Below are positions 383 to 30,413 of a DNA stretch of 30,413 nt, one piece after another (position 1 is the stretch's first letter; each line of letters starts with the position of its first letter). The position numbers and the translations under genes are program-made. This DNA is from a virus, in IMG/VR virus record IMGVR_UViG_3300025276_000137, positions 1 through 30,413 of that record. One strand, 5' to 3'. Below the pieces are notes generated by a model. The model searched no databases and was not told the DNA's origin. It saw nothing but the letters and a program-made list of their open reading frames with translations.

Positions 383-2595
383 TCTACGAGCAAACCTTAG
401 TTAAAACAGTTGAGCCAATAAAAAGGACTACTATATCCAGAATGAACAAGGGTAAGAAGTGGAAATATGGCTACAATAAAGAACAAGATCTAATAGTGCT
501 TTCGCGCGACGGTCAGATAGGAGAGATTATACAAATACAAGATCTAGTCATCGCTCTACCTAAGCAACCTAAGGATGTGTATAGCAACGCTAAAGATAAA
601 TGGGTTAGATTTACTCAACCGAAAGAATTAGAGCGCTTAAAAAGCATATTTGATTGGCGTGCGTATCCTGAGGATCAAAAAGATCAGTGGCACGATTATA
701 TAGACGAAGAGTTTAGAAGAAGAGAAGAAGGATTTTGGTTTACTAATAACGGTAAGCCAACCTGGATAACAGGTACTCAATACATGTACCTGCAATGGAG
801 CAAGATAGATGTAGGTGCTCCAGATTTTAGAGAGGCAAACAGATTGTTTTATATTTTTTGGGAAGCTTGTAAAGCCGATAAAAGATGTTATGGAATGTGT
901 TACCTTAAGAATAGAAGATCTGGATTTTCTTTTATGTCTTCAGCGGAAACAGTTAACTTAGCCACTCTTGCGAGTGATAGTAGATATGGAATCTTATCTA
1001 AAACAGGCGCCGATGCTAAAAAAATGTTTACCGACAAAGTTGTACCTATATCAATCAACTATCCGTTTTTCTTTAAACCTGTCCAAGATGGTATGGATCG
1101 GCCTAAGTCCGAGCTTGCTTATCGTGTACCTGCTAGTAAGTTTACAAGAAAAAAAATCACAGCTAATGAAAAGCTGGAAGATATACAAGGGTTAGATACA
1201 ACGATTGACTGGAAGAATACAGGAGACAATAGTTATGATGGTGAAAAATTAGCTCTGCTAGTACATGATGAGAGTGGTAAATGGGAAAGACCTGATAATA
1301 TATTAAATAACTGGAGGGTTACAAAAACATGTTTACGATTAGGTAGTAGGATTATTGGTAAATGTATGATGGGATCAACCTCAAACGCATTAGATAAAGG
1401 TGGAGAAAACTTTAAAAAACTATACAACTCATCCGACGTCACGAAAAGAAATAGAAATGGTCAGACGAAATCTGGCTTATACTCTTTGTTTATCCCAATG
1501 GAATGGAACTATGAAGGATTTATTGATGAGTACGGAGTTCCAGTTTTTACTACTCCTGACGTCGACAGACTTGCACCAGACGGTGAATTAATAGATGTAG
1601 GTGTAATAGATAATTGGCAGAATGAAGTAGATGGTTTAAAAGATGATTCAGATGGTTTGAACGAATTTTACCGTCAGTTTCCAAGAACTACAGAGCATGC
1701 TTTTAGAGACGAGACTAAAGGTAGTATATTCAACTTGGTTAAATTATACGAGCAGATAGATTATAACGAAGAAATGAAAAACACCTTAGGAGTTACTCAA
1801 GGTAATTTTCAATGGGCTAATGGAGTTAAAGATACTCAAGTAATGTTTAGCCCAGATCCAAAAGGTAGGTTTAAACTAAGCTGGGTTCCACCTCAGCAAA
1901 CACAAAACAATGTTGTACTTAAAAATGGTATAAAATACCCAGGCAATGAGCACATGGGAGCTTTTGGTTGTGATTCATACGATATATCGGGAACAGTAGA
2001 TGGAGTGGGTTCTAAAGGAGCTTTGCACGGTTTAACCAGGTTTAGTATGGAAGATGCTCCCGCAAACAGTTTCTTCTTAGAATATTTATCAAGACCACCA
2101 ACAGCAGAAATGTTTTTTGAAGATGTTCTAATGGCTTTAGTTTTTTACGGAATGCCAATATTAGCAGAGAACAATAAACCTCGTCTATTGTATTATTTAA
2201 GGCGAAGAGGTTATAGAGGGTTTAGTATGAATAGACCTGATAAGATATGGAACAAATTATCTGTAGCTGAAAAAGAAGTTGGTGGAATACCCAATTCAAG
2301 TGAAGATATAAAACAAGCACATGCAGCCGCGATTGAGATGTATATACAAGATCACATAGGCATCAAACAAGATGGTACACACGGAGACTGTTATTTTAAC
2401 GAGCTTCTAAACGACTGGACTAAGTTTGATATAAACAAAAGAACAAAGCATGATGCATCTATAAGTTCTGGTTTAGCTATAATGGCTAATAACAGGCATT
2501 TATATAGACCAAACGCTGAGGTTAAAAAACCTCAACTAAACATAAACGTTTCTAGGTACACAAACACTGGAAATAATTCACAAATAATCAAGTAA
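379..2595 (+). CDS. terL: Terminase large subunit (packaging ATPase-nuclease)
   Basis: 738 residues, a usual to long size for TerL. This motor docks on the portal, pumps DNA into the prohead with ATP and cuts the concatemer. An N-terminal region with N-N-G-K-P-T-W-I-T-G (around residues 124-135) leads to a deviant Walker A, K177-N-R-R-S-G-F-S184. Walker B is A-L-L-V-H-D297-E298, with E298 the likely catalytic glutamate. The C-terminal nuclease domain has a first acidic motif at D532-S-Y-D535 and a later H-G-D. The Walker A lacks Lys directly before Ser/Thr and resembles the lambda gpA form, whose lysine lies at the start of the motif; K177 would then bind ATP. The start overlaps the preceding stop (ATGA), implying translational coupling. 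The portal gene follows after 5 bases. Confidence 0.9.
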   Translation: MIYEQTLVKTVEPIKRTTISRMNKGKKWKYGYNKEQDLIVLSRDGQIGEIIQIQDLVIALPKQPKDVYSNAKDKWVRFTQPKELERLKSIFDWRAYPEDQKDQWHDYIDEEFRRREEGFWFTNNGKPTWITGTQYMYLQWSKIDVGAPDFREANRLFYIFWEACKADKRCYGMCYLKNRRSGFSFMSSAETVNLATLASDSRYGILSKTGADAKKMFTDKVVPISINYPFFFKPVQDGMDRPKSELAYRVPASKFTRKKITANEKLEDIQGLDTTIDWKNTGDNSYDGEKLALLVHDESGKWERPDNILNNWRVTKTCLRLGSRIIGKCMMGSTSNALDKGGENFKKLYNSSDVTKRNRNGQTKSGLYSLFIPMEWNYEGFIDEYGVPVFTTPDVDRLAPDGELIDVGVIDNWQNEVDGLKDDSDGLNEFYRQFPRTTEHAFRDETKGSIFNLVKLYEQIDYNEEMKNTLGVTQGNFQWANGVKDTQVMFSPDPKGRFKLSWVPPQQTQNNVVLKNGIKYPGNEHMGAFGCDSYDISGTVDGVGSKGALHGLTRFSMEDAPANSFFLEYLSRPPTAEMFFEDVLMALVFYGMPILAENNKPRLLYYLRRRGYRGFSMNRPDKIWNKLSVAEKEVGGIPNSSEDIKQAHAAAIEMYIQDHIGIKQDGTHGDCYFNELLNDWTKFDINKRTKHDASISSGLAIMANNRHLYRPNAEVKKPQLNINVSRYTNTGNNSQIIK

Positions 2596-10917: not shown

Positions 10918-13900
10918 ATGCCAGAAATCAAGCACCAGTTTACAGGCGGTAAGATGAATAAAGATCTTGACGAAAGACTTGTTCCAAACGGAGAGTATAG
11001 AGACGCAATGAATGTGCAGGTTTCAACGTCAGATGGTTCTAATGTTGGTGCAATTCAGAACGTACTAGGAAATTCAATTATCAGTGGACAAGATTTTATC
11101 ACCACAGACGCTGTTTGCGTTGGATCAATTGCCGATGAAAAAAACAATAAGCTGTACTATTTTATCGCTGATTTTTATGCAATTATAATCGAGTACGATA
11201 CTATAAAAAAAACAGTAATACCTATAATAGTTGATACAACAGTAGGAGCTGATGTTTTAAGTTTTGATGCTCAACACGCTATAACTGGTATAAATATAAT
11301 AGATGAATTGTTGTTGTGGACAGACAATAAAAGTGAGCCTAAAAAAATTAACATACCAAGATGTAAAGCCGGTACTGATCCTAGCGGCATTGTTCACACT
11401 AAATTAATGGTGGGCGGGAATTATGATGAAAATCTAGTTTATGTAAACGGAATTAACGAGGGTCTTATCAAAGAAAGCCATATAGCTGTTATTAAAAAAG
11501 GCCCTTCTAAAGCGCCTAAAACAATCCCTGAGTCTGCTAAAATATCTGGATACGTTAAAGGTAGTATGGAATTAGTTGGTGTTGGTAATGTTAATTATTT
11601 TTACCCTATAGGAAATGATGGAGGCGAAGTAGAGCAAGGCCATGAAACGTGGATTGGCCTTCAAAATATAGATCGAGTGCAGGTTCCAAATGGTGGGCTT
11701 AGTGTAGGTACATCGCCAAACCTTGTCGTAGGAGACGTTATTAGAGTGTACAATGGAAAAGCAATACCACAAGATGGGGAAAAACCTATTGCTAGACTGT
11801 TAATTAAACAAATAGAACCTGGTCAATTTTATTATTCTCAGGCGCAAAATAATTATGAAGAAGTAAGTGGTCACCCTACTTATGGTGCCATTATTGCTTA
11901 TAGCCACCAAGTAGCATATAAAGTTTCGGTTTCAACATTAATTTCTCATGATTTTACATCCGGGTATTATTTTGAACTAGAGCAAGAAGAGCATAGTATA
12001 TTTAAAGGTAAATTTCCTAGATTTTCCACAAGATATAAATATGAGGACAACGAGTACTCCCCTGTTGGGCCGTATTCAGAAGTTGTTTTTATTCCTGGAG
12101 AATTTGATTACCATCCTACTGAAGCCTATAACAAGGGCATGGTTAACAATTTAAAACAACTAATTTTACAAGATTTTGTTTCTACAGACATACCAAAAGA
12201 TGTTGTAGGAATTGATTTATTATACAAAAATGAATTCTCTCCAAACGTATACGTTATAAAAAGTGTTGATAAAAATGATGAGGTTTGGAACAACGGGTAT
12301 ACAAACCCTTTGAAACCAAAAGGATCTTATATTATTACCACGGACAATGTCTACGCTCAAGTTCCTTCTAACCAGCTTATAAGACCTTGGGATAATGTAC
12401 CTAAAAAGGCTTTGGCCCAAGAAGTCACGGGTAATAGAGTTGTTTATGGCAACTATGTGCAGGGTTATAATCTTGAAAATGAACTTGGTCAAAAAATAAC
12501 ACCTAAGCTTACAGCTTCAATTGATAATAGGTTTGATAGCAGCTACAGCACATCTAAAACGCGTAAATCTTTAAAATCTCAAAGAACATATAATTTTGGA
12601 ATTTTATATGGAGATAAGTATGGTAGAGAAACACCTGTATTTACCAATGATAAGGCTAATGAGTTAATTACAAAATCTTCAAGCGCTAGCTCAAGTAGCA
12701 TTGCGATTAACATTGAAAGCCCCCACCCATCATGGGCTGAATACTACAAAATACTTGTAAAAGAAACGTCAAGCGAGTATTATAACGTAGCAATGGGTAG
12801 GGCTTACGATGCTGAAGATGGAAACGTTTGGATATCATTTCCTTCTATTGATAGAAACAAAATAGATGAAGATACATACTTGGTTTTAAAAAAGGGACAC
12901 GAACAAGATAATTTTATTTTAGACGAAGCTAGGTACAAAGTTGTAGCGATTGAAAATGAAGCCCCAGACTATATAAAAACAAGATACAATCCAATAGCAG
13001 AGCCTAACATGGATATCCACGGTTATCTTTTAACCGGGGCGAAGCAAACTGCTCTCGAAGGAGATCCTCGAGTTGTAGAGTTTCCATCCCCAGTTCAACC
13101 ACCTTTCCCTGGCCAATCATCATTTACAATAAGACATTACACTTGGAGCGACCCGTATCACGTAGATACTTTCAGGTTTGGATTACCCGATATGGTCAAA
13201 GCGTGGGAAGATAGAAAAAACACTGATATATACGTTTCTTTTTCAAATAAATATAGAGAAGAAGGTGATACAACTAGTTGGGTGGATGTTCCAATTAGAA
13301 TGACTAAAAAGTACAGGGTAATGGATATTGTAAAACTGCAACCCTCTGGAGCTTTTACAAACGGTGATGATGTTCCAGATTTGTATTTTGTAAGGTTAAA
13401 TCAATCAATATCTATGGAAGATGCTTTCATTACAGACAACTTTACCGAAGTGTTTCAAAATGGTGGGCAATTAAAACCTCACTTTTACAGAAAAGAAATA
13501 GAAAACTTACCTGAGTTTGACGGTAGGTTTTTTGTTAAATTAATAGAAGACGAAGTATTAGCTGATAACATACCAAAAATTGCCGCTCCCACTTCACAAG
13601 GCTGGAATGTTGATGGCGGAATAAGTGAGTTATATTATTTGAGTGATAGTAGTTGTGATTCTAATCAGTTCTTAATAGATGGGGGCTTGGTTGGTACAAC
13701 TGGTGAGGAAGCCAGTGTAACACCGGCTAATTGGCGGGTAAACCTTGGTGGACCCGAAAATGACTACAGTGGTATTTACAGCAGGTGGTTTATAGACGCA
13801 ACCGCTTACGCGGGTAGCCAACCAAGTGGTAGCTCTGACGTTAGAGATTTTGAAGCGGTACAAGACGGGGTGGCTTTAAGCGATACAACTAGTGCTGTAA

Positions 13901-16900
13901 ACTATAAAATTGTTATGGATGCGGATGGAGACAGACTTGCTGATCTTGAAGATTATAGCATAGTTTATCTAGATATGGCAACCGATACTTTAGGGCAAGA
14001 CGAAGACGAAACGTGGGGCGATGGGCGTAGTCTTGGTGCTCGTTTTTTACACGGCGCACATACTGGCTCATACACGCAGGGAGATTTAGGCGATGTAACA
14101 ACAAATGCTCACGCAAATGATTTTGGTGACGGGCCAAATAATTATTTACACTTATCATATGGAGGTATTGCTCCACAAGCCGTTGGAGCTGGTAAAGGCT
14201 CGCTAAACCCTAGTACTCCGGGGCCTTGGAGTAAATCGTGGTGGGATTTTTATAATTACAATAGATTTTGGGATAATCCACTTTCAGCCTTGATTGATAA
14301 TAGTGTTTTATCACAATTTGTACAATCCCAATTTCATGTTATTAAAAAACTAACTTACGGCTCTTTATTCAGGCTAAAGGGTGATCCTAATGTTTACAAA
14401 ATAACTCAAGTTACAAAAAGAAGGCTTTACAACTACATGGGGGCTAATAGAATTGCAGAGGGATTAAAATGGTACTCAAATAGTGCTAACGATCCCGGCG
14501 CCTCTTCAGACATGAACTCTTTAAATGCAGATGATTTAATTAAAGCTGCAAACCAATCATTAGCAGTAAACAACGGGATTGATTTCTCGTCTGCATTTAC
14601 AAGAACCGGTGCAAATGAGCAAGTTAAAACGATGATGAAGCCTAATAACGCTAGAATAAGTTATTTAATTCAGTACCAGGTTTTAAATGGGCAAAAAAAC
14701 CATGATCTAGAATCTGCGTCTAGCACTGGAACGCCTATTCATGCCAATGACCACCAAGCGTTTGATCTAGGTGGTTCTATTATAAACAGCACTACACACG
14801 GTGGTTTAGAGTTTGTCAGTACGTTTACAACTACCGAAAAAAATATTCTTCCAAGTAATCCGGCTATATTTGAAACAGAGCCTAAAGAAGATGTAGATTT
14901 AGATATATACTACGAGGCAACTGGTAAAAAACCAATTAGTACAACTCAAGAAAATATTTTAAATTTAGTTGAAATAGGAGCAATAATAACTGTTACCCCA
15001 ACAACTATAGTTGGTGGCGTGATGGATGGAACTTTTGTAACTGGCATTCAAAATACAGCTGTTGGTGTTTGGAAGATAGTGCTATCAAACAAAGTTAGTT
15101 TAGATGAATTAGGGTTTATAAACGGTGTATCTACTTCTGATAATTCGGTAAGAATAAAATTTCACAATGACGATGGAAGTTTTGCTGTTGCTAAGCTAAC
15201 GCCTTTTACATATACAGCTGGAGGTAACCAACCTGCTGACATTCAAGATAGTGGACTTGAAAGTAATCAATCATTTGCCTCTATACCAACTTCAGTACAG
15301 ACTATATATGTAGAATTCATAGATAACACTTTTGGCTTAGGATGGTGGAATTGCTGGAGCTTTGGTAATGGAGTTGAATCTAACCGTATTGGTGACACGT
15401 ATAACAAGCCTTTTATTGCAAATGGAGTTAAAGCGTCAACCACCGTGTTAGAAGACTACAAAGAAGAGCAAAGAAAGCATGGGTTAATATACTCTGGTAT
15501 TTACAATTCTACAAGTGGGGTTAACTCTTTAAATCAGTTTATAGCTGCGGAAAAAATTACAAAAGATTTAAACCCTACTTATGGCAGTATACAAAAGCTA
15601 CACTCTAGATCTACTGCTGATGGAGATTTAATAGCTTTGTGTGAAGATAGGGTTATTAGAATTTTAGCAGATAAAGATGCTATATTTAATGCTGATGGTA
15701 ACCCGCAGTTAATAGCTACTGAAAATGTGCTTGGACAAGCAATACCTTATTCAGGTGAATATGGTATTTCTAAAGATCCACAGTCATTTGCGTCAGAATC
15801 TTATAGACTATACTTTTCAGATAAAACTAGAGGCGCTATTATAAGGCTTTCTAAAGATGGATTAACAGCTATATCAGATCATGGTATGAAAGATTGGTTT
15901 AAAGATAATTTAAAATTATCTAATAAATTAATTGGTAGTTATGACGATAAAAAAGATGAGTACAATGTGACTCTTAAAAACATTGGCGAAAAAACATACA
16001 CATCTACTAATACTTCAATTCCTACTCCGTTTACTTTTAGTGGTTATGGTGATATAATTACAGCGGCTGATACCATAATTATTTCAGCAATGAGTGGGGT
16101 TGAAGCAGGTGATTTAGTAACTGTAAATAGCTTTTATTTAAGCTTAGCTGTAGGCACTGTAGTTGTTGGGACTAACGTAGTTGGAAACACAATGACAGTT
16201 GCTTTAGATAATCTAGTAGTACAATCACCAGATTACGCATATCCACCATCTTTTCCTTGGCAAAGTAATTTCACTTTTACTGGCACTAGGGTTACAATAA
16301 AAACAACTACAGTACAAGATCCCGTTGACACTCTTCCTTCTAAAACTGTTACTTTTAAAGAAGACACAAAAGGCTGGGTTAGTTTTAAATCTTTTACCCC
16401 TGAAAACGCTATTAGCTGCGCTAATGAATATTACACTTTCAAAAGCGGTAAGTTATGGCAGCACCACGTAAAGGGATTGGTAGGGTCTCCGACTCCAATG
16501 AACACATTTTACGATATTCACACAAGCTCTTCTTTAACCGCTTTGTTAAACGATATGCCGGGTATTGTAAAATCTTTTAAAACAATAAACTACACGGGTA
16601 GTGATTCTAAAACTATAAAACCATCTGCGGAAACATATTTATACCCTGGCGGAGATATTTCAAGCGATGGAGAGTATTACAACTTTAATAACAAGGCTGG
16701 GTGGCATGTTGTTAGCATTGAAACAAATAAGCAAAAAGGAAGCATAAACGAATTTATAGAAAAAGAAGGTAAGTGGTTTAACTATATAAGCGGAGAAGCA
16801 ATAGTTTCAGAGCCAGGTGGATTAACTGTAAGTGGCTTAGATTTAGGTGATTTTTCATTTCAAGGAATTGGAATTCCAACTGGAATTTCTCAACCTATTG

Positions 16901-19218
16901 TAATTGGTTGTACGGACTCTACGCAGCAGAATTATATTTCTTGGGCAAATACAGAAAGTGATCCTAGTACATGTATAGCATACGCATTTGGATGCCTAGA
17001 TTTAGCGGCTATTAACTACGATGCTACCGCTAATTATGATGATGGTTCATGTTATTACCCTGGGTGCACTGATCCATTAGCAATGAACTATGATTCAAAC
17101 GCTACTACTGACGATGGTTCTTGCAACACACCTTATTTTGGATGTACTGATCCATCTGCGTGTAACTATGATATTAATGCAACTTATGATAATAATACTT
17201 GCATGGTGCCTGACGGGTGTACAGATCCTACGGCTGGTAATTATAACTTTACCGCCCTTTGTGATGATGGTTCTTGTTGTGTGGCTGGTTGTACAGATCC
17301 TCTTGCAACATCTACGTATGACCCACTAGCTACCTGCGCGAGTAGTGGCTGTGTTTATTGCGATAATCCAACCGCACCTAACTACAATATTGGTTTTCCA
17401 TGTAACACTTGTTCTCCCGTAACCTCAATAAGTGTAAATATGTCATCGAGAACGACAACAACTATTGAGCTCTTTTTTCCAGAACTTACAATGGCTACTA
17501 GTTATACTCTAGTTATCCAAGAAGCGTTGACTGCCATTGAGACTACTTTATCAATTTTCTCAAATACATTAGGTATGACTGGCTGGGGTACTGGTACAAT
17601 AACAATTACCGTGGGCGCTATTACGGCCTTGACTGACACAACTGAATACAATTTTAGCATAGTAACAGACTGCTCTCAACTTCCTGCAAACGGAGTTTCA
17701 ACAGCGGCACCAATAACAAGTGCTACAGCCACCACTTTAACGCCAACAGTACAAGGATGTTTAGATCCATTAGCATGTAATTATAACGCATTAGCTAATT
17801 TTGATCCAGCGATTTCTGTTTGTGAATACTTAACTTGCGCTGGGTGTATGAACTCTAGTTACGAAGAGTATGGTGTTGCTACAAATGGATTATTTCCAAC
17901 AATTTCTGATCCATTTCAGTGTTTAACCTTAACATCTTCTATAACTGGATGTACGGATCCTACAGCCCTTAACTATAATTCTAACTTTATATACGATTGT
18001 AATGGAGAATTTGGCAATCCAAACAACTCCAATTGGGATTCATGTTGCCAGGATGTGGCTGATTATACGTATGTTCCTGATGATAATTTTGAGAATTACT
18101 TAGAGGTTAATGGAATGGGTGATACCGTGATGAATCCAGACCCTAATTTAGCACTACCTTATGGAAACTACCCTAACTACGTTTTAAACTCTTATATAGA
18201 CGCGGTTACATCTTTAAACCTTCAAGGTGAGAGTATATCAGACTTAACGGGTGTAGAGGGTTTTACAGCCTTACAAACAATTACTATTAGTGAAAACCCA
18301 CAAGCTAACAATGGTAATTTTGCCTCACTTCAATTGCTAACGGATCTGGTTAATCCTGAAGATTTAACTACTTACACTAATTTAACGGAAATAATTGCAA
18401 AAGCTAATAATTATACTATATTGGGAAGTGATGACTTAACGTTTCCAGATTTAGAAACGCTAAATGTTGGTGGTAACTACGGAACTACAGATGCACTTAA
18501 TACTATTAACCTTGATAACTTGCCGAGCTTAAAAAAGATATATGTGCAATGGTCATCAATAACAAGTCTTGATACAAGCAATAATACCGCACTAAACCAC
18601 TTACAGTGTAATAACACTTCTATTACAAGCCTTGATGTAAGTAGTAATACTGCTTTAACCCATATGAATGTTATGGATGCTAGTTTAAATACAATAACTT
18701 TTGACAACACGGGGGGAAATAGCAACGTAAAATTCTTAAAATGTTACAACAACAACTTAAGTACAATTGATTTAACAGGTTTAGAGCATTTACAGCATTT
18801 AAAAATACAAAACAACAATTTAACAACCTTAACCACACCAGCTTCAAACGCTTTTGGCTCTTATCAACTCGAACTGATTGACTGTAGTAATAATGCACTA
18901 ACTCACATTAACGCCAGCGCACATAACTCATTGTTAAAATCCTTTAATGCAAACAACAATGGAGATCTTGCTACTATTGATTTTGGAAATAACGATTTAG
19001 ATGAAATTACAAGTATGCAGCTTAATTGGGTTGGGGTTTTCTCGGTAATTACTGGAGCGGATACACTTGAAATATCAACACAAGACAATGCGTGGCTTGC
19101 TACATATGGTGGCGTGCAAAACAGTCAATTCTTATTTACTGGCAAAGATGTTAACGGCGTCTCTACGCTACCTTCTACTTGGAGTACTAATATCACTTTA
19201 CTTTTTAACAACAATTAA
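10918..19218 (+). CDS. Giant tail hub/receptor-binding protein with Cys repeats and LRR
   Basis: 2766 residues, the longest complete gene here. The N-terminus (H-Q-F-T-G-G-K-M-N-K-D-L-D-E-R-L, then N-G-E-Y-R-D-A-M-N-V) and later strands such as R-T-Y-N-F-G561-I-L-Y-G-D-K-Y-G-R-E-T-P resemble the hub of short-tailed phages (P22 gp10/T7 gp12-like, beta-propeller-rich). A second hub-like block runs from about 1557 to 1961, ending K-E-G-K-W-F-N-Y. Then come added modules: nine or ten Cys repeats of type G-C-T-D-P-x-A-x-N-Y (1997-2377), an FN3-like domain within them (about 2166-2278), and a leucine-rich-repeat domain from Y-V-P-D-D-N-F-E-N-Y (2385) to the end. The repeats and LRR look like secreted flavobacterial proteins, so this tip probably recognises the host. 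Residues about 600-1550 are beta-rich and unassigned. A hub role is well supported; receptor binding is inferred. Confidence 0.75.
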   Translation: MPEIKHQFTGGKMNKDLDERLVPNGEYRDAMNVQVSTSDGSNVGAIQNVLGNSIISGQDFITTDAVCVGSIADEKNNKLYYFIADFYAIIIEYDTIKKTVIPIIVDTTVGADVLSFDAQHAITGINIIDELLLWTDNKSEPKKINIPRCKAGTDPSGIVHTKLMVGGNYDENLVYVNGINEGLIKESHIAVIKKGPSKAPKTIPESAKISGYVKGSMELVGVGNVNYFYPIGNDGGEVEQGHETWIGLQNIDRVQVPNGGLSVGTSPNLVVGDVIRVYNGKAIPQDGEKPIARLLIKQIEPGQFYYSQAQNNYEEVSGHPTYGAIIAYSHQVAYKVSVSTLISHDFTSGYYFELEQEEHSIFKGKFPRFSTRYKYEDNEYSPVGPYSEVVFIPGEFDYHPTEAYNKGMVNNLKQLILQDFVSTDIPKDVVGIDLLYKNEFSPNVYVIKSVDKNDEVWNNGYTNPLKPKGSYIITTDNVYAQVPSNQLIRPWDNVPKKALAQEVTGNRVVYGNYVQGYNLENELGQKITPKLTASIDNRFDSSYSTSKTRKSLKSQRTYNFGILYGDKYGRETPVFTNDKANELITKSSSASSSSIAINIESPHPSWAEYYKILVKETSSEYYNVAMGRAYDAEDGNVWISFPSIDRNKIDEDTYLVLKKGHEQDNFILDEARYKVVAIENEAPDYIKTRYNPIAEPNMDIHGYLLTGAKQTALEGDPRVVEFPSPVQPPFPGQSSFTIRHYTWSDPYHVDTFRFGLPDMVKAWEDRKNTDIYVSFSNKYREEGDTTSWVDVPIRMTKKYRVMDIVKLQPSGAFTNGDDVPDLYFVRLNQSISMEDAFITDNFTEVFQNGGQLKPHFYRKEIENLPEFDGRFFVKLIEDEVLADNIPKIAAPTSQGWNVDGGISELYYLSDSSCDSNQFLIDGGLVGTTGEEASVTPANWRVNLGGPENDYSGIYSRWFIDATAYAGSQPSGSSDVRDFEAVQDGVALSDTTSAVNYKIVMDADGDRLADLEDYSIVYLDMATDTLGQDEDETWGDGRSLGARFLHGAHTGSYTQGDLGDVTTNAHANDFGDGPNNYLHLSYGGIAPQAVGAGKGSLNPSTPGPWSKSWWDFYNYNRFWDNPLSALIDNSVLSQFVQSQFHVIKKLTYGSLFRLKGDPNVYKITQVTKRRLYNYMGANRIAEGLKWYSNSANDPGASSDMNSLNADDLIKAANQSLAVNNGIDFSSAFTRTGANEQVKTMMKPNNARISYLIQYQVLNGQKNHDLESASSTGTPIHANDHQAFDLGGSIINSTTHGGLEFVSTFTTTEKNILPSNPAIFETEPKEDVDLDIYYEATGKKPISTTQENILNLVEIGAIITVTPTTIVGGVMDGTFVTGIQNTAVGVWKIVLSNKVSLDELGFINGVSTSDNSVRIKFHNDDGSFAVAKLTPFTYTAGGNQPADIQDSGLESNQSFASIPTSVQTIYVEFIDNTFGLGWWNCWSFGNGVESNRIGDTYNKPFIANGVKASTTVLEDYKEEQRKHGLIYSGIYNSTSGVNSLNQFIAAEKITKDLNPTYGSIQKLHSRSTADGDLIALCEDRVIRILADKDAIFNADGNPQLIATENVLGQAIPYSGEYGISKDPQSFASESYRLYFSDKTRGAIIRLSKDGLTAISDHGMKDWFKDNLKLSNKLIGSYDDKKDEYNVTLKNIGEKTYTSTNTSIPTPFTFSGYGDIITAADTIIISAMSGVEAGDLVTVNSFYLSLAVGTVVVGTNVVGNTMTVALDNLVVQSPDYAYPPSFPWQSNFTFTGTRVTIKTTTVQDPVDTLPSKTVTFKEDTKGWVSFKSFTPENAISCANEYYTFKSGKLWQHHVKGLVGSPTPMNTFYDIHTSSSLTALLNDMPGIVKSFKTINYTGSDSKTIKPSAETYLYPGGDISSDGEYYNFNNKAGWHVVSIETNKQKGSINEFIEKEGKWFNYISGEAIVSEPGGLTVSGLDLGDFSFQGIGIPTGISQPIVIGCTDSTQQNYISWANTESDPSTCIAYAFGCLDLAAINYDATANYDDGSCYYPGCTDPLAMNYDSNATTDDGSCNTPYFGCTDPSACNYDINATYDNNTCMVPDGCTDPTAGNYNFTALCDDGSCCVAGCTDPLATSTYDPLATCASSGCVYCDNPTAPNYNIGFPCNTCSPVTSISVNMSSRTTTTIELFFPELTMATSYTLVIQEALTAIETTLSIFSNTLGMTGWGTGTITITVGAITALTDTTEYNFSIVTDCSQLPANGVSTAAPITSATATTLTPTVQGCLDPLACNYNALANFDPAISVCEYLTCAGCMNSSYEEYGVATNGLFPTISDPFQCLTLTSSITGCTDPTALNYNSNFIYDCNGEFGNPNNSNWDSCCQDVADYTYVPDDNFENYLEVNGMGDTVMNPDPNLALPYGNYPNYVLNSYIDAVTSLNLQGESISDLTGVEGFTALQTITISENPQANNGNFASLQLLTDLVNPEDLTTYTNLTEIIAKANNYTILGSDDLTFPDLETLNVGGNYGTTDALNTINLDNLPSLKKIYVQWSSITSLDTSNNTALNHLQCNNTSITSLDVSSNTALTHMNVMDASLNTITFDNTGGNSNVKFLKCYNNNLSTIDLTGLEHLQHLKIQNNNLTTLTTPASNAFGSYQLELIDCSNNALTHINASAHNSLLKSFNANNNGDLATIDFGNNDLDEITSMQLNWVGVFSVITGADTLEISTQDNAWLATYGGVQNSQFLFTGKDVNGVSTLPSTWSTNITLLFNNN
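16906..18048 (+). repeat. GCTDP-type cysteine repeats (coding)
   Basis: Nine to ten imperfect units of about 20-35 residues, each with G-C-x-D-P-x-A-x-N-Y and usually closing D-D-G-S-C. Clear units include G-C-L-D-L-A-A-I-N-Y, G-C-T-D-P-L-A-M-N-Y, G-C-T-D-P-S-A-C-N-Y, G-C-T-D-P-T-A-G-N-Y and G-C-T-D-P-T-A-L-N-Y. The paired Cys and the acidic D-D-G loop suggest disulfide-locked, calcium-binding turns, as in extracellular repeat stalks. The series is split by an FN3-like domain at about 17413-17751. The DNA copies have diverged, so the array is old or under selection only at the protein level. Confidence 0.85.
17413..17751 (+). other. FN3-like domain inside the Cys-repeat array (coding)
   Basis: About 113 residues (2166-2278 of the giant tail protein), free of cysteine except one, with the strand pattern of a fibronectin type III fold. 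It begins V-T-S-I-S-V-N-M, continues T-T-I-E-L-F-F-P and A-T-S-Y-T-L-V-I-Q, and ends T-E-Y-N-F-S-I-V-T-D-C before a Thr/Ala linker. FN3-like modules are frequent in secreted Bacteroidota proteins and in phage tail proteins, where they act as spacers or weak glycan binders. Confidence 0.55.
18553..19014 (+). repeat. Leucine-rich repeats at the tip of the tail protein (coding)
   Basis: About seven imperfect units of 21-24 residues with the frame S-I-T-S-L-D-x-S-x-N-T-A-L-x-H. Successive units start S-I-T-S-L-D-T, S-I-T-S-L-D-V, S-L-N-T-I-T-F, N-L-S-T-I-D-L, N-L-T-T-L-T-T and A-L-T-H-I-N-A. A cap precedes them at 18070 (Y-V-P-D-D-N-F-E-N-Y), followed by V-T-S-L-N-L-Q-G and I-S-D-L-T-G-V-E-G, exactly the order seen in flavobacterial secreted LRR proteins. 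LRR arcs bind proteins or glycans. Confidence 0.85.
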
Positions 19219-22086: not shown

Positions 22087-22497
22087 ATGGAAAATGAATT
22101 AAGATTTAGGCATCTTGTAAAGAATGATCACAAAACTATATGTGAATGGTGGAAATGGTGGAGATGGCCTGAAATACCAAAAGAAATGCTACCTGATAAT
22201 GGAAAAAGTGGTTTTATGGTAGAAAAAAATGGAGTGCCTATAGTTTCTTGTTTTTTATTTATTACAAACTCAAAAGGTGCAAAATTAGAGTGGATTGTAT
22301 CAAACCCAAAATACAAAGAAAAAGATAGAAAAAAAGCAATAGAAATGCTTATTAATGGAACTGAAATTGCTTGTAAAAAAATGGGCTACGAGTACATATT
22401 TAGTATAGGTAGGAACAAACACTTAATGAAAACACACGAAAAATTAGGATGGACCGTTGACAAAACTCCATCATACGAAATAATTAAAAGAATATAA
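22087..22497 (+). CDS. GNAT-family N-acetyltransferase-like protein
   Basis: 136 residues, a normal minimal GNAT length. Features are an N-terminal R-F-R-H-L-V-K-N-D-H strand-helix and a Trp-rich stretch (E-W-W-K-W-W-R-W-P). Then come G-F-M-V-E-K-N-G-V-P-I-V-S-C-F-L strands (the beta2-beta4 hairpin), L-E-W-I-V-S-N-P, and a helix with R-K-K-A-I-E-M-L. The C-terminal H117-E-K-L-G-W-T-V is the usual K-L-G-F/W ending. GNAT enzymes move an acetyl group from acetyl-CoA to an amine. The canonical R/Q-x-x-G-x-G/A pyrophosphate loop is not clear, so the protein may be divergent. It starts immediately after the oxygenase stop. A joint role in modifying virion or host proteins is inferred from this pairing alone. 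Confidence 0.65.
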   Translation: MENELRFRHLVKNDHKTICEWWKWWRWPEIPKEMLPDNGKSGFMVEKNGVPIVSCFLFITNSKGAKLEWIVSNPKYKEKDRKKAIEMLINGTEIACKKMGYEYIFSIGRNKHLMKTHEKLGWTVDKTPSYEIIKRI

Positions 22498-23281: not shown

Positions 23282-24937
23282 ATGGCAAATGGAACGGCGG
23301 ATGCTACTTTAGTAGCTGCAGCATATAAAATGGGCATGGCAAATGTACCCGCGGATACTAGTAGAACTTTTATGCGTCAATACGAGGCTCTTGGTCAAAT
23401 TGATACTGCTAAAATTGAATTACAAAAAAACATTGTTAGCAGTGCTGTTACCCTTGGTAAACTAGGTATAGGATTTGCTCTTGACGCAGCAACTAAAAAA
23501 AGACAAGACAAGAGAGATGAAGAGTTTAACGATGAAGAATCTGGAATTGATAACGTAGACAACTTGGTAAAGGATCACGTTGGATCTATGGGTAAAAACT
23601 GGAGTAACTACAAGACAAAGGCAGATCCAACAACTATTGATTACCAAAAGAAAAAAATTGAAGTTATTAAAGAAGAAATAACTAGATTAAGAAAAGCCGC
23701 AAAAGGAAACCCAGAAAACATAGCTAAAATATCAGAGTTAGAAAAAAAAGTAGGTTTATGGCGTGACGAAACAAACAAAGGGATTTCTGATATTAATGTT
23801 CATAGTGAGTATTTTAAAACGGATGCCGTAGACAATAATACTAGTTTTAGAACAACAACCTCAAGTGGAGACACTGAATTCAGCCCTACAATGGCTTTGT
23901 TGTACAAAGATGTCATGGATCCAAGCGTGGATCTTAACGATGCAAATGTTACTCCTTTTTCACAAAACGGACAAGAAGGTTATTTATTTAATCCAAAAGA
24001 AGATAGACTTGCATTAAGCTATAATTTAAGCAAAAAATCAATGTTAGGTTATGATCCAAAAGCAAGAACCACGGGATTTTTTGAAAAAAAATATTCTAAC
24101 GAAGGAGCTGGTTTTGGCGGAAAAAACATACAATTAGCAAAGAAAAAAAATACATCATGGATTTCTAGAGAAGAGCTATTATCATTCGTTAAGTTAAAAG
24201 ATAAAGACTTACCTATAGCATTGACTGGTAAAATGACAGACATACTTAAAGGTGGCTTAAATAAAGTAAAACAAAGGATTTTAAATGCAGATGGAAGTGT
24301 TGAGGATCACAAAACTAAAAAAAATTATTTAATATCAGATTATTCTGAAATAGCAAAGAAAAGCGAAAATGATTTTTACAATATCATAATGTCGCCAACA
24401 TCTACACAAAACAAAAAATCAGTTACAAGAGATGTGAAAGGTGGTATTGCTTATATATCAAACAATGAAATAATGCTTGGTAATACTCCTATTAATTACG
24501 GGGAAATGAAACGAAAAGATTTTAGCGTAGATATAGCCGTTATAAACCAAATGGGTGTTGGTAGTAATGTTTTTACAGCTAAAGAATTAAAAGACGGAAA
24601 AATAGATGCTGCTGAGCTCGCAAAACACGAAGGCGCTAAAGAAAAAATTTATAAAATTCTTTTCAACCCTAAAACCAAACAAGAGACAGAAATAGCGGCT
24701 AGAGAAATTGCTAAGTTTTTTAACTTACAGACAATGGGTAAGTTTAACAGTGACAGAGGTAATGTTGTAAAAACAAAACCAATCGTAAAAACACCAACTA
24801 GTGATTTTAAAGAAACACCTGACACACAAGATATTGCTTTTTACATGGATATAGTTAATGACGTAAAAGAAAAGCCAGTAAAAGGTTACGATTACGACGG
24901 AGACGGGAAAGTTGATGGTAGACCAATAAACAAATAA
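23282..24937 (+). CDS. Putative internal virion protein with C-terminal calcium-loop-like motif
   Basis: 551 residues. The N-terminus (A-D-A-T-L-V-A-A-A-Y-K-M-G-M) and a helix L-G-K-L-G-I-G-F-A-L-D-A resemble ejection-type helical proteins. A charged coil around 120-160 (K-K-I-E-V-I-K-E-E-I-T-R-L) is followed by a mixed alpha/beta region with no motif I recognise. The extreme C-terminus carries D537-Y-D-G-D541-G-K-V-D545, the spacing of an EF-hand/dockerin-like calcium loop, although the usual twelfth-position Glu is missing. It is the middle gene of the putative ejection block, preceded by an A/T-only leader and separated by three bases from the giant protein gene. Function is inferred from position. 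It could also be a structural protein of the tail. Confidence 0.55.
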   Translation: MANGTADATLVAAAYKMGMANVPADTSRTFMRQYEALGQIDTAKIELQKNIVSSAVTLGKLGIGFALDAATKKRQDKRDEEFNDEESGIDNVDNLVKDHVGSMGKNWSNYKTKADPTTIDYQKKKIEVIKEEITRLRKAAKGNPENIAKISELEKKVGLWRDETNKGISDINVHSEYFKTDAVDNNTSFRTTTSSGDTEFSPTMALLYKDVMDPSVDLNDANVTPFSQNGQEGYLFNPKEDRLALSYNLSKKSMLGYDPKARTTGFFEKKYSNEGAGFGGKNIQLAKKKNTSWISREELLSFVKLKDKDLPIALTGKMTDILKGGLNKVKQRILNADGSVEDHKTKKNYLISDYSEIAKKSENDFYNIIMSPTSTQNKKSVTRDVKGGIAYISNNEIMLGNTPINYGEMKRKDFSVDIAVINQMGVGSNVFTAKELKDGKIDAAELAKHEGAKEKIYKILFNPKTKQETEIAAREIAKFFNLQTMGKFNSDRGNVVKTKPIVKTPTSDFKETPDTQDIAFYMDIVNDVKEKPVKGYDYDGDGKVDGRPINK

Positions 24938-24940
24938 TAA

Positions 24941-27900
24941 ATGGCTGATATAAAAACTGTAATTCAATCTATGATTGATGCTGGTGAACCAGACGAGAAA
25001 ATACAAGGTGTAATAAGTGCTTACAAAGAGCAGCAAGCTAATAAGCCAGAAGAAGTAAAGGAAGAACCAACACAGAAGGATGTCGCTGTGCAGGAAGAAA
25101 ATACGGCATCCAATGGGGAGGAAAGTTCTACGGATTCACAAGATAATTCGCTAACAGACACTATTATGGGAGCGTCTTACCGGGTAAGTGAGGAAGGAAT
25201 AGCTAGTGGTAAAAAAAATAAAGAAGCAGCAAGAAATTTTTTCTCAACAAAAAAATCAAAGCTAGAGCAAGCCTTAGACAACGTTAATATAGAGGTACCA
25301 TTAACCAAGAAGGATATTGCTAACGTGGACACCGACTTACAATTAGCGCAATCACCTAAAATAAAAGAATTAGAGGCTAAGTTAAAAGAAGCTCCATCTA
25401 TGTCTCAAGAAGCTGCTGACATACTAAAAGAAATAGAAAGCATTAAAAGCGCGACTACTGAATCTAGAGTTAATCCAAGAAATAAATCGTATAAAAAAAA
25501 TATTGACCTTGTTACTCAACACGAGGATAAAGTTACTGAAATAACCAATAGAGTGGTTAGTAATGGTGGGGATGAAAAGGAAGTTAAAAAACAAGTTGAT
25601 TTTTATGAAAAAAACAACCCCGAGCAAACTAGGATTAATACGGCTAATTACGAGATAGAAACGGTTAATAAAGCCTTAGACAATATATCTACAGCCAAAA
25701 CTGGTGACACTTACTCTAGTTTTAGTGATACAGAAGAAGAGGCTACCGAACTAAACGACTTGGTTGAACAGCAGATAATAGAAGATCTTTCTATAAAAGA
25801 CATGGGTAAGGCTGCTGAAAACAATTACACTCTTAGCGAAAAAGAAAATATAATAAGGACAGCTAAGCAAAAAGTAGTAGAGTCTGAGTATGAAAAAGCT
25901 AATAATGTGTATAGCAGCGCTATTGTTTTAGATTTTGTTAAAAAGAAAAACGACTTAGATGCCCAGATCAAAGCCATGAGTAGGTATGGTGATGATGGGT
26001 TATTACTGCCATTTACAACTGAAGAAGAGGCCAACAAGTATAACGGCTTAGTAGGTCAATATAATGATTTAGATAGTGAGCGTGAAAAAGTAAGTGATTT
26101 GGTTTTATCGGCTAAAGATAGATTAGAAACAACGTTTACAGAGCTAGGTTTTAATGCTGTAGATGGAACCATTAGCAACAATTTTGAAATGACTGATGAT
26201 TATCAAGAGTGGAGAGATAAACATGTTAGAGAAAGAGGGTTTTGGGGAGGAACTTATGACGCTGTAGGGACTTTCGTTCAAGAAGGCGTTAATATAGCTG
26301 CTGACGCAACCGTGGGCACTAGTGTTTGGTTGGCAGGTTTAATGGATGAGACAGTTAACAAAGAAAGTCGCTATTACAATGGGCACGATGCGATACAGGA
26401 TTCTTACAAAAACTTTGCAAACTTTAATTGGGCTGGAACGTCTGATTACGGCGCTAACATACTAGACAAAAATGGTAATTACACTATAAATGCTAGATCT
26501 ACCACTAAAACTATAGCTAACATGCTGCCTTTTACTATAGGTGTTATTTTATCAGCTAGAAGTGGTAACTTAAAGCCAGCTAAAAGTTTATGGAACACTG
26601 TAGGTCCAAAATTTTTAACGTCTTCTAAGGGTAGATCTACTATTAGAATGGTTGATGCCTCTTACAGAATGACTGTTAATGATAATTTCCATGAAGGAAA
26701 AGACTTAGGGCTTGACGATGGGCAATCATATGCCTATAGTAGTATGAAGTCGTTTGGAACTGGTCTGTCTCAAATGATAATGCCTGATGCAAATTTTCTA
26801 GGCTCAACTGCTGGTAAAACCATATTAAAAGGTTTTGTTAGCAATTTAAAAAATTCAGCCACTAAAAAAGCTATTGGAGGAGCGACTAAACAATTTGTAA
26901 TTAACATGGGCAAAGAGCTTGGTGAAGAAGAACTTGAACTCGCGTTTGGGGATATTGCTAAATATTCAGTTGGACTACAACATTCTCCTGACATTCTAGA
27001 CTTAAGAACTCAAAAAGAAACAATAGCAGCAACTCTAATGCTGTCTGGAAGTTTAGGAAGCATAGGAACTGTAAATGATATAAAAAACGCTAAAAAGCAG
27101 GTATATCAGCAGTACAAAAACAATGGTCAAGATATTATAGATGTTTTAGATGATAACTTAAGGGTTGCGGAGGTAAAGCTTAAAAAAGCTAGAACTCAAA
27201 AGTCCAAAGATAATCACCAAGCAACTATTGATCAAATCAATAACGCTAAAAACTACGGGCAAAGTATAATTAACGCTGTTAATTCTGCTCCAGAAAATGT
27301 TTCAGACGATCAAATAGACTTGCTAATACAAAAGCAAGAGTTAGTAAAGCAAAAGCAAGGTAAAGATAAAGCTATCTCTGTTGGTATAGATAATCAAATA
27401 AAAGAGATTGATGAAAAAATATCAAACTCTGTTATTAAGCAAGGTGAAAAAGCACAGACTGAAAAGAATGTAGCAACGGTAAAACAAGCCATTAAGAAAG
27501 GTGGTTTAGAGGGTAATGTATCTGAGATGACTTCTAAAGAAATATCAGATATTAAAGAAGAGGGATTTGACTCTAAGTCAGCAGCTGGTCAATTTGGTTA
27601 TATAAAACAAAAAACTGATGGTAGCTTTGATATAGTGTTGAACAAAGATAAACCAATGGTTGGCGTAGAATCTCACGAGTTTATGCATGCTGTGCTATTT
27701 AAAACGGTTGGTAACAACAAGGAGATACAAGATAACTTAGGCGATGCGTTAATAGATCATGTTTTAAACAACTTAAAAGGTGACGCAAGCGTGTTAGGTA
27801 AAAGACTATCGGCTTATGGTAAGTATAATAAAGAAGGTGAGTTTATAAGAGATAAAAACTTTGGTGAAGAGACTATAACTATAATGTCTGAATCTATTGT

Positions 27901-30413
27901 CAATGGTAGCTTAAAGTTTGATGAAAACTTTTTTACAAAAGTTGGTGATGTTATAAGGAGGTTCTCTCAAAATTATTTAGGTAAAAAAATTACATTTGAT
28001 ACTGGAAAAGACGTTTACAATTTTATTAAAGATTATAGTAAAAACGTTAAAGACGGTAAAATAAATAAAGCTATATTAAAAGTAGCTAAAGAGGGTGCAA
28101 AAGGTAAATTAGTTAAAGGTAAGGTTGAAGCAAAGGCAGGTACGCAGATGTCTAAATCAAATATAAATCTAGACACAGGTGAAGGTGATCTATCACAAAA
28201 AATTGATGCCTTAACGGGAGGTGCTAAAACAATAGCTGAGTTTCAAAAACCAGGAGGAGCTTTTGATAACATATACTCAGGTATGCTTCAAGGCAAGTTT
28301 GATAGAGTATTTGGAGAAGGTGTATCAAGAGAGCAAAAAGATATACAAAGACAAAATCTTGCTGATAGATTAATGAATTATGATCCAGCTAAAACGCCTG
28401 AATTATCTAAGTGGATATATGGTGGTAGTGGTAAAGCTGGTAATGTTGTGTATGCTGGATTGGTGGCTAAAAAGAAGTTATTTGAAGAAGGAGAAGTAAG
28501 AAAGAAAACAACTACTATAGACACTAAGGAAGCTAAAGAATTAGAAGACACATCGACAACAACTGAAGTAGAAGATAAAAGTAAAGCTAGAAACCTAAGA
28601 GATTTTGACATAGAAGTAGAAGATGGTTTAGTTAACGCTGAAATAGAAGCTGAGGTTGAAGCTTTGTTGAAAAAAAATCCTGATGATATTGAGGTTAAAA
28701 TGGAAAAGCTAATACTAGGTGATATACGTAAATCGCTTGACGGTGTTATTGGTAAAATAGCTAAAGACAAGAAGACGGGTAAAAGAGGTCCAACCGCTGA
28801 ATACGAGGCTTTTATTAGGAACGAATACTTAGAGGTAGTTCAAAGTTTAGGTATGGAAACAATAAGAACAGCTTATAGACCTTGGTTTGAAAGTAAAAAA
28901 ATACGTACAGAAAAATACAAAGGCATTAGCCCTAAAACAGGTAAGGTAACAAATTATGTAAAAGATGTTTTTGAAAACAAAACAAATAAGCGAGAGTATA
29001 TTAGGTGGTTTTTAGAGGGCAACGAGCGTAATATGACGGAAAGAAGAACTGCTTTAATAAGACGTATAGCTAGGAGAAAAGCGAAAATAGCTACAGATAA
29101 TTATATTGAAGCTAATTCAAAAAACTTAGACAAAGTTGCCGAGGCTAAGCTGAGAAAAGTATCTAGAGCCATTGAAAATACTCAAGTTGAACAAAAAAGT
29201 TTTGACTCTATTAAGTATTCTAAAAACAAAATGCTACCAACTAGATTGTCTCAGGAATTTAGTGCTATATTTTATAGGGGAAACAATGGAAAACCATTGG
29301 TTCAAAAAGGCACTATTTGGACTGGTTACGTAAACCCCTACACTAACGAGCCACAAAGCTTTGTAGATAAAGGAAGGATTTGGGAACAAGCCTTTGCTAA
29401 TTACTTCATGAAAAACGGCATAAAAGGATTAAAAGTTTTATCTGAAATAGCAAGTGAGGTTGACGGTATGGCGGACTTTGTTTTTGAATATAACGGCAAG
29501 GTGGAGAACCACGAGTTAAAAGCTTCTATAACTGCTTTTATGGGTAGTATTTCTATTTCAAACCTTAAAAACGGAAAAATTGAATTTGCAACAGATACAC
29601 ATAACAACTTATTAGAACAAGTTGATATGAAAGAATTTATGAAGGGTTATAAAAAGCGAATAGACTTTGTAAACAAAGGTATTGAAAAGCTGAATAAAAA
29701 AATAAAAGATACTAGCAAACAATATGCACTTATAGATTACGATGTTACTAGCGGGAAGCCTCAGAACATTCCTTACGAGCTTTACATGGACAAGAAGGGC
29801 TTTGGAAATAAAATGTTTTACCAACTAAAAGCGGACCAAGCTGTAATAGAAAACCACTACAAAAGCAAAAAAGATAAAAACGGAATTGGCGTTAGATCAC
29901 TTAGTTTTGTTGGCACAAAAACTGGTAACATGTCTTTTGGTCTTGATAGTGAGTCTATATTAAATTTACCTAGGCTAGACGCAGATGTAGATGTTAACTT
30001 TACGTTTAGAAACGGAGGTTCTAAAATGGTTAATGGTAACAAAGTAATATCACTTAGTCTTGGTGTTCAGTTTAAAATATCTAAACTCAATAACAAAGCT
30101 GAAAACTCTGTAGATATTACTATAAAAGAAGATCTACAAAAAGCTCTTGGCATTAACTTTTCAAAATCAATTGAAGGAAGAAAACTAAACAACGCTATCA
30201 ACTTTTCTAGATCAACTAACAACCCAACAAAGGGTATTACAGTTCTAGATTTTGACGATACGCTGGCTACGAGTAAATCTAGCGTACTCTGGACAGCTCC
30301 AGACGGAACAACTGGCAAATTAACTGCCGAAGAGTTTGCGAAGCAAGGAGCAGACCTCTTAGCGCAAGGATACGTGTATGATTTTTCTGAATTTAACAAA
30401 GTTGTTAAAGGTA
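24941..30413 (+). CDS. Giant polyvalent protein: zincin-, PD-(D/E)XK- and HAD-like domains (partial, 3' end missing)
   Basis: The frame is open from ATG 24941 to the window end without a stop: 1824 residues and still incomplete. The N-terminus (V-I-Q-S-M-I-D-A-G-E-P) is followed by an acidic linker, coiled coils, and a hydrophobic helical region (about 420-700) containing K-E-L-G-E-E-E-L-E-L. Residues 880-1000 hold a zinc-peptidase motif H912-E-F-M-H916, with E976/E977/E984 as candidate third ligands. Residues about 1075-1420 are charged helices of unknown fold. A nuclease-like core follows: E1482 in I-W-E-Q, D1512 in G-M-A-D-F-V-F, and E1525-L-K1527, the order of a PD-(D/E)XK fold. Near the window end D1770-F-D1772-D-T1774 is HAD motif I. 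Multi-enzyme polyvalent proteins of phages are thought to enter the cell with the DNA; that role is inferred here, as is any self-cleavage. Confidence 0.8.
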   Translation, partial: MADIKTVIQSMIDAGEPDEKIQGVISAYKEQQANKPEEVKEEPTQKDVAVQEENTASNGEESSTDSQDNSLTDTIMGASYRVSEEGIASGKKNKEAARNFFSTKKSKLEQALDNVNIEVPLTKKDIANVDTDLQLAQSPKIKELEAKLKEAPSMSQEAADILKEIESIKSATTESRVNPRNKSYKKNIDLVTQHEDKVTEITNRVVSNGGDEKEVKKQVDFYEKNNPEQTRINTANYEIETVNKALDNISTAKTGDTYSSFSDTEEEATELNDLVEQQIIEDLSIKDMGKAAENNYTLSEKENIIRTAKQKVVESEYEKANNVYSSAIVLDFVKKKNDLDAQIKAMSRYGDDGLLLPFTTEEEANKYNGLVGQYNDLDSEREKVSDLVLSAKDRLETTFTELGFNAVDGTISNNFEMTDDYQEWRDKHVRERGFWGGTYDAVGTFVQEGVNIAADATVGTSVWLAGLMDETVNKESRYYNGHDAIQDSYKNFANFNWAGTSDYGANILDKNGNYTINARSTTKTIANMLPFTIGVILSARSGNLKPAKSLWNTVGPKFLTSSKGRSTIRMVDASYRMTVNDNFHEGKDLGLDDGQSYAYSSMKSFGTGLSQMIMPDANFLGSTAGKTILKGFVSNLKNSATKKAIGGATKQFVINMGKELGEEELELAFGDIAKYSVGLQHSPDILDLRTQKETIAATLMLSGSLGSIGTVNDIKNAKKQVYQQYKNNGQDIIDVLDDNLRVAEVKLKKARTQKSKDNHQATIDQINNAKNYGQSIINAVNSAPENVSDDQIDLLIQKQELVKQKQGKDKAISVGIDNQIKEIDEKISNSVIKQGEKAQTEKNVATVKQAIKKGGLEGNVSEMTSKEISDIKEEGFDSKSAAGQFGYIKQKTDGSFDIVLNKDKPMVGVESHEFMHAVLFKTVGNNKEIQDNLGDALIDHVLNNLKGDASVLGKRLSAYGKYNKEGEFIRDKNFGEETITIMSESIVNGSLKFDENFFTKVGDVIRRFSQNYLGKKITFDTGKDVYNFIKDYSKNVKDGKINKAILKVAKEGAKGKLVKGKVEAKAGTQMSKSNINLDTGEGDLSQKIDALTGGAKTIAEFQKPGGAFDNIYSGMLQGKFDRVFGEGVSREQKDIQRQNLADRLMNYDPAKTPELSKWIYGGSGKAGNVVYAGLVAKKKLFEEGEVRKKTTTIDTKEAKELEDTSTTTEVEDKSKARNLRDFDIEVEDGLVNAEIEAEVEALLKKNPDDIEVKMEKLILGDIRKSLDGVIGKIAKDKKTGKRGPTAEYEAFIRNEYLEVVQSLGMETIRTAYRPWFESKKIRTEKYKGISPKTGKVTNYVKDVFENKTNKREYIRWFLEGNERNMTERRTALIRRIARRKAKIATDNYIEANSKNLDKVAEAKLRKVSRAIENTQVEQKSFDSIKYSKNKMLPTRLSQEFSAIFYRGNNGKPLVQKGTIWTGYVNPYTNEPQSFVDKGRIWEQAFANYFMKNGIKGLKVLSEIASEVDGMADFVFEYNGKVENHELKASITAFMGSISISNLKNGKIEFATDTHNNLLEQVDMKEFMKGYKKRIDFVNKGIEKLNKKIKDTSKQYALIDYDVTSGKPQNIPYELYMDKKGFGNKMFYQLKADQAVIENHYKSKKDKNGIGVRSLSFVGTKTGNMSFGLDSESILNLPRLDADVDVNFTFRNGGSKMVNGNKVISLSLGVQFKISKLNNKAENSVDITIKEDLQKALGINFSKSIEGRKLNNAINFSRSTNNPTKGITVLDFDDTLATSKSSVLWTAPDGTTGKLTAEEFAKQGADLLAQGYVYDFSEFNKVVKG

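Follow-up and report, generated by a model that had tools for sequence, protein, structure and literature searches.

Polyvalent proteins of phages and conjugative elements, as described by Iyer et al. 2017 (PMC5512222), carry unrelated enzyme domains on one long chain and are encoded beside virion or conjugation genes. They have been proposed to enter the cell together with the DNA and to be processed by zincins, which are their commonest domain; self-cleavage by their own zincins had thus been predicted, and a role of zincins as effectors was weighed there as an alternative (PMC5512222). Other very large proteins packed in virions are N4 virion RNA polymerase, phage P1 DdrB and crAss001 gp47, gp49 and gp50 (PMC5512222, PMC10172136), the last three being RNA-polymerase-associated cargo (PMC10172136).

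The DNA analysed here (hereafter the window) is an entire linear virus record of 30413 bp. Its last gene encodes a giant protein, read without a stop from its ATG at 24941 to position 30412 at the contig end (1824 residues). Since the window is the whole record, the reading frame can not be extended further. The full gene in the closest relative, L002 (78% identical), encodes 2774 residues, so that about 950 residues are absent from the window protein. Substitutions between the window and L002 at codon positions 1, 2 and 3 number 279, 200 and 688, respectively, and the window frame has no stop, which indicates protein-level selection on this frame. The single open frame of at least 1824 residues reported in an earlier note on this DNA is confirmed. 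The features of the window are as follows.

379 to 2595, plus strand: terminase large subunit, first gene of the collinear virion block; it puts the virus near Elemovirus, Pachyviridae and Pervagoviridae
23282 to 24937, plus strand: preceding gene of 551 aa, at the same position as phi18:3 gp121 and phi38:1 gp100
24941 to 30412, plus strand: giant gene (predicted cargo), ATG start, 1824 codons, 3' side truncated by the contig end
24941 to 25150, plus strand: leader (residues 1-36), then an acidic linker rich in Ser/Thr (37-70); several apparently exchangeable leader types exist in the family
26198 to 27442, plus strand: N-terminal domain (420-834), of a type common to about 10 giants, with other types elsewhere
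27461 to 28147, plus strand: zincin-like metallopeptidase domain (841-1069), predicted ligands H912, H916 and E977, catalytic E913
28136 to 28165, plus strand: joint motif TQMSKS (residue 1070), at the border of the zincin and the middle region
28622 to 29215, plus strand: middle helical domain (1228-1425), common to L056, L062, L083, L093 and L094
29204 to 29233, plus strand: joint motif IKYSKN (residue 1426), at the border of the middle domain and the nuclease region
29216 to 30145, plus strand: candidate PD-(D/E)XK nuclease region, with E1482, D1512, E1525 and K1527 invariant in 6 sequences
30146 to 30220, plus strand: joint motifs INFSKS (1740) and INFSRS (1755), just ahead of the HAD domain, at very low pLDDT
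30212 to 30412, plus strand: start of the HAD phosphatase domain, motif I DFDDT (1770-1774), with motifs II-IV past the contig end

The giant protein belongs to a large and barely described family, mostly from marine phages. When viral contigs were scanned with C-terminal pieces from three relatives, 366, 366 and 430 relatives were confirmed, so that its membership there is at least 366-430. A more distant relative, L004, is 2446 residues long, its best segment being 45% identical. Searches with Pfam and NCBIfam on the whole window protein and on L002 returned no significant family, and Pfam applied to 59 variable regions gave a single match (DpnI_C), in one other family member.

From the terminase onwards, the virion block is collinear with that of Manatee Spring podovirus MW202828, Elemovirus, phi38:1 (Pervagoviridae) and phi18:3 (Pachyviridae); all four phages end it with a gene for a giant or large protein. 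The family is the last virion-block gene of Pachyviridae/Pervagoviridae/Elemovirus-like podoviruses of Flavobacteriia. From this collinearity, the host of the window virus is most likely a member of Flavobacteriia. The proposal that the giant gene closes a block of putative ejection proteins is borne out by its position at the end of the collinear block. The product of the preceding 551-aa gene shows no sequence match to its positional counterparts gp121 and gp100. The tail block also encodes a 136-aa protein (22087-22497, PHROG 17252) that is conserved in all four comparison phages and annotated in MW202828 as an acetyltransferase subunit. The 2766-aa tail-type protein at 10918-19218 has, in its C-terminal part, several Cys-rich repeats (GCTDPxAxNY...DDGSC) followed by leucine-rich-repeat-like sequence, probably a host-binding extension. 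The MW202828 giant (MW202828.1:741-12320, 3859 aa), which exhibits two HEFGH motifs, has been given the annotation "reticulocyte binding/rhoptry protein", which is almost certainly wrong.

Three catalytic signatures had been read from the window protein in the earlier note: a zincin peptidase (HEFMH, 912), a PD-(D/E)XK nuclease (E1482/D1512/E1525-K1527) and motif I of a HAD phosphatase (DFDDT, 1770). Every quoted residue is found at its position. The chance of each motif was judged from 2000 shuffles of the window protein: HExxH arises in 0.55% of them, DhDx[TV] in 28% and the spaced E..D..ExK pattern in 98%. HExxH alone is thus significant from a single sequence, and the HAD and nuclease assignments depend on relatives.

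The zincin proved to be real. In an alignment of 63 diverse relatives (A1), H76, E77, H80 and E141 are invariant, corresponding to HExxH and a glutamate 65 residues downstream, and the core of the domain is modelled at pLDDT about 85-95. An HExxH with a glutamate in the following helix is how PMC5512222 defines the zincin domain. The nearest solved folds are zincins, at a weak Z of about 5, and a profile search of the zincin alignment against PDB gave no significant match.

The DFDDT motif likewise belongs to a genuine HAD phosphatase. Only motif I lies inside the window; motifs II (LTAR), III (K) and IV (DD), for which the earlier note had advised extending the contig, occur in full-length L002, whose HAD domain spans residues 1833-2010, and in almost every relative. 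In structural comparison the three best matches of the domain are all of Pnkp type: T4 Pnkp phosphatase (Z 12.7 over 128 residues, 2.6 A), T4 PNK (12.2) and bacterial Pnkp1 (11.9), the best non-Pnkp HAD match having Z 10.9. Of 33 members, 20 match PHROG 415, "polynucleotide kinase" (best 3e-7; L002, 7e-5), and in a control T4 PseT matches this PHROG through its phosphatase half only (residues 154-298). The cleaned HAD profile had no significant match in a sequence-only profile search of PDB (E about 0.9), and hhalign to T4 PseT aligned motif I alone, not significantly. The assignment is therefore made at the level of fold and family, and its best match is a polynucleotide 3'-phosphatase of the T4 Pnkp kind, as predicted from the model and the family profiles.

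Some relatives combine this domain with a kinase. The HAD domain of L025 (8936-10144), L042 and L063 has a P-loop kinase of AAA_33/zeta-toxin-like type nested between its motifs I and II; this kinase matches AAA_33 at 5e-12, and in L063 also the T4-PNK family PHROG 505 at 1.6e-5. Two more relatives, L058 and L087, are without DFD[DE]T and have a related kinase at this place instead. We also considered an RNA ligase partner forming a tRNA-repair pair. The PF09414 matches, which occur in four of the 42 records, resemble DNA ligase (KLDGVR) and thus give no support for such a pair, and the PF09511 RNA ligase profile found no match in the related records and none in the controls either. The four records (L097-L100) encode an ATP-dependent ligase of about 290 aa, probably a DNA ligase.

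For the third signature, the evidence is divided. Six sequences are available for the candidate region, of which the four distant ones are 39-44% identical to the window and L002 over 90%. E1482, D1512, E1525 and K1527 fall within the most conserved blocks of the region, and the predicted order of elements, a helix with the E, a strand, a strand starting at the D and a strand ending in ExK, fits a PD-(D/E)XK core. A serious alternative, to which we give appreciable weight while not preferring it, is that only the zincin and the HAD phosphatase are real and that the "nuclease" is a non-enzymatic domain with a chance spacing of E, D and ExK. The spacing occurs in nearly all shuffled sequences, as noted above, and the model of the region has low confidence (pLDDT about 35-70) with no fold match; against it, the four residues are invariant in six sequences, placed in the densest conserved blocks and in the expected helix-strand-strand-strand order. 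A PDB profile search with the nuclease alignment gave no significant match, and no relatives were confirmed in bacterial genomes. The nuclease of the earlier note is thus tentative, its residues being conserved and the order of elements fitting, with no fold match; we regard residues 1426-1735 as a probable PD-(D/E)XK nuclease on the basis of conservation.

The window protein consists, in order, of the leader and linker (1-70), a helical N-terminal part, the zincin (841-1069), a helical middle domain (1228-1425), the candidate nuclease (1426-1735) and the HAD domain from residue 1758. In relatives, the HAD domain is followed by an all-helical C-terminal module, about 700 residues long, that contains a single hydrophobic segment. 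Pairwise BLAST among 71 relatives revealed very uneven sharing of these parts. The C-terminal part is shared by every pair, the zincin by 49% of pairs, the two halves of the variable cassette by 31% and 15%, the N-terminal part by 15% and the leader by 7%. Even among pairs more than 60% identical in the C-terminal part, just 22% share the leader or the N-terminal part. The low sharing of leader, N-terminal part, zincin and cassette indicates that the giant protein is a mosaic. Within the first 60 residues or so (window 24941-25120; L013-L091), several unrelated leader types occur (MFEYEFEG..., MERYNVEG..., MNEELELEIQKLIDAG...). They share a similar acidic linker behind them and look exchangeable. 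The leader is possibly a packaging signal; its use as a general address tag was rejected, the tested leader types being found on giant ORFs only, among the loci compared. Three relatives (L127, L151, L167) exhibit an extra module between the HAD domain and the C-terminal module, flanked by IKFSKS-type motifs. The C-terminal tails of the L002 and L004 giants (L002:18100-18307, L004:15400-15490) contain Cys/His knuckle-like motifs (C-x~10-C...C-xx-H, twice in L002), possibly a zinc-binding tag.

The suggestion that a hydrophobic N-terminal third contacts membranes did not hold: across the window protein, the mean Kyte-Doolittle value stays at or below 1.4 in every stretch of 19 residues. In relatives P0002 and P0003 the hydrophobic helix sits in the C-terminal module, which is absent from the window. 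This module bears on a rival explanation, in which the giant is mainly a T7 gp16-like ejection or channel protein whose helices form a trans-envelope conduit and whose enzyme domains are accessories for the envelope or for virion maturation, not for host nucleic acid. The gene is among the last of a podovirus virion block, and the sole part common to every pair of members is all helical with one hydrophobic hairpin, as a conduit would suggest. However, the C-terminal module exhibits no detectable match to solved structures (PDB profile search of its alignment). The large models were poorly tested in this respect; Foldseek on the two large models gave no significant match, only the re-alignment of candidates being informative. 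The HAD phosphatase and the kinase also point to nucleic-acid ends rather than to the envelope. We consider the channel explanation unlikely.

The borders between the modules are marked by a short motif. The window sites listed above fall at domain borders, at pLDDT under 50 or nearly so, in poorly ordered linkers of the model; the L002 form is VKFSKS. We tested the pattern [VILA]x[FYM]S[KR] in 69 relatives. It was observed 96 times in the variable region, against 13.7+-3.6 expected, and 39 times in the 35 residues after the HAD domain, against 0.9 expected, with no excess in the N-terminal, zincin, HAD and C-terminal regions. Since the pattern was picked after viewing these same 69 relatives, a held-out test carries more weight. 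In held-out relatives the excess is weaker and still present (27 against 6.5+-2.6; after the HAD domain, 10 against 0.4). Part of it there lies in the HAD loop "DDTLAFSKS" of one clade, the remaining extra matches being shifted joints or borders of inserted modules (IKFSKS). In an unbiased count over non-redundant contexts, FSK is the top-enriched tripeptide of the variable region (z 9.2); in the held-out relatives it ranks only ninth. We found no description of a repeated joint motif or of a cleavage signal of polyvalent proteins in the literature searched.

What this motif does admits two readings. It may be the leftover linker of recombinational module exchange rather than a cleavage site, the zincin being then an effector that cuts host proteins. 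Module swapping is indeed strong in the family, and zincin effectors are an alternative already considered in PMC5512222. Against this, the serine codons of the motif (TCN/AGY) occur in background proportions; the motif thus appears to be selected as protein and not as DNA, and a DNA-level recombination site is rejected. Moreover, an identical motif borders unrelated modules. We find the linker reading somewhat improbable, and favor the motif as a candidate processing signal for the embedded zincin protease, as its placement in the sequences suggests. A joint loss of zincin and motif is not supported by L060, which is without HExxH yet keeps F-S-E at its joints, so that motif and protease do not strictly co-vary.

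The earlier note had also proposed that the protein is carried in the capsid. The evidence is indirect: the positional counterpart gp123 of phi18:3 has the GenBank note "experimental MS/MS proteomics analysis" of virions, and a profile grown from its residues 250-430 collects 54 sequences, with L004, elemoA and phi38:1 proteins among them, so that by profile comparison the N-terminal domain of gp123 is homologous to 54 giants of the family. However, the N-terminal domain of the window protein is of a different type, with no significant match to that of the MS-detected gp123 (hhalign probability 2.8%). Its carriage is therefore argued from where its gene lies and from the modules that it shares with the family (C-terminal, zincin and HAD). 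The giant protein is probably packed in the virion and delivered to the bacterium together with the DNA; it may also disarm or reprogram the host, as had been suggested.

Taken jointly, these data lead us, with moderate confidence, to read the giant protein as a polyvalent-type virion cargo of a Flavobacteriia podovirus that would be cut by its zincin at the joints, its HAD domain healing 3' ends and its nuclease acting on nucleic acid. The chain would be synthesised whole, with leader, helical N-terminal domain, zincin, exchangeable cassette (in the window protein, the helical domain and the probable nuclease), HAD domain and helical C-terminal module. As homologues and gene order suggest, it would be packaged in the virion and would enter the host either together with the DNA or before it. 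The embedded zincin may then cleave its own chain or sister copies at or near the [VI]x[FYM]-S-[KR] joints and so release the enzymes, as motif placement suggests. The HAD phosphatase would strip 3'-phosphates from broken RNA or DNA ends, allowing damage inflicted at time zero by nuclease-type host defences to be repaired, and the nuclease might act on host or competing nucleic acid. A more specific version, which we put forward tentatively, is a virion-borne self-cutting polyprotein with [VI]x[FYM]S[KR] as its joint signal, injecting Pnkp-like end repair at time zero against host nuclease defences; if one zincin reads a shared signal, cassettes could be exchanged without restriction provided that the joint is preserved.

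Across hundreds of giants of this family, whose phages are abundant and mostly marine, the joints are thus marked by a short motif. The lineage has cultured members (Cellulophaga, Flavobacterium) for which virion proteomics is feasible. With these cultures and the joint motif, whether and where the giants are cut, and which enzymes are injected before gene expression, can be tested directly. A virion-borne Pnkp-like phosphatase, if true, would put end repair in place before newly made proteins could mend defence-triggered breaks.

Compared with known systems, Cellulophaga phi18:3 gp123 (1935 aa) and phi38:1 gp101 (1691 aa) likewise close the same collinear block; unlike the window protein, they contain no HExxH and no DxDxT-type motif, and no homology of the C-terminal module to the Cellulophaga proteins was detected. 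Elemovirus elemoA gp21 (3694 aa) and the MW202828 giant share both the position and a homologous zincin (E 1e-10 and 1e-6, respectively, in a small search), whereas they lack a HAD motif and their C-terminal module shows no detectable similarity. With T4 PseT (Pnkp), the family shares the fold and motifs of the phosphatase half and, in three relatives, an AAA_33-type kinase. Unlike in T4 PseT, the HAD domain here lies within a giant protein, a kinase, if there is one, sits inside the phosphatase, and neither L002 nor the window part has a kinase. N4 virion RNA polymerase, P1 DdrB and the crAss001 cargo proteins resemble the giant protein in being very large and virion-packed, the first two also in having a zincin (PMC5512222, PMC10172136); in contrast to N4 virion RNA polymerase and DdrB, no RNA polymerase or ParB-like domain was found here. 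The giant protein thus resembles N4 virion RNA polymerase and the crAss001 RNA-polymerase cargo without belonging to either. Like the polyvalent proteins (PMC5512222), it joins at least two unrelated biochemical activities in one frame beside the virion genes, a zincin and a HAD phosphatase, with a nuclease as a probable third. As a difference from them, no Pfam family was significant in the whole proteins P0001-P0003, LPD domains included, and phosphatase, haloacid and polynucleotide kinase are unmentioned in the main text of PMC5512222. The giant protein fits the polyvalent proteins, and is a new architecture among them.
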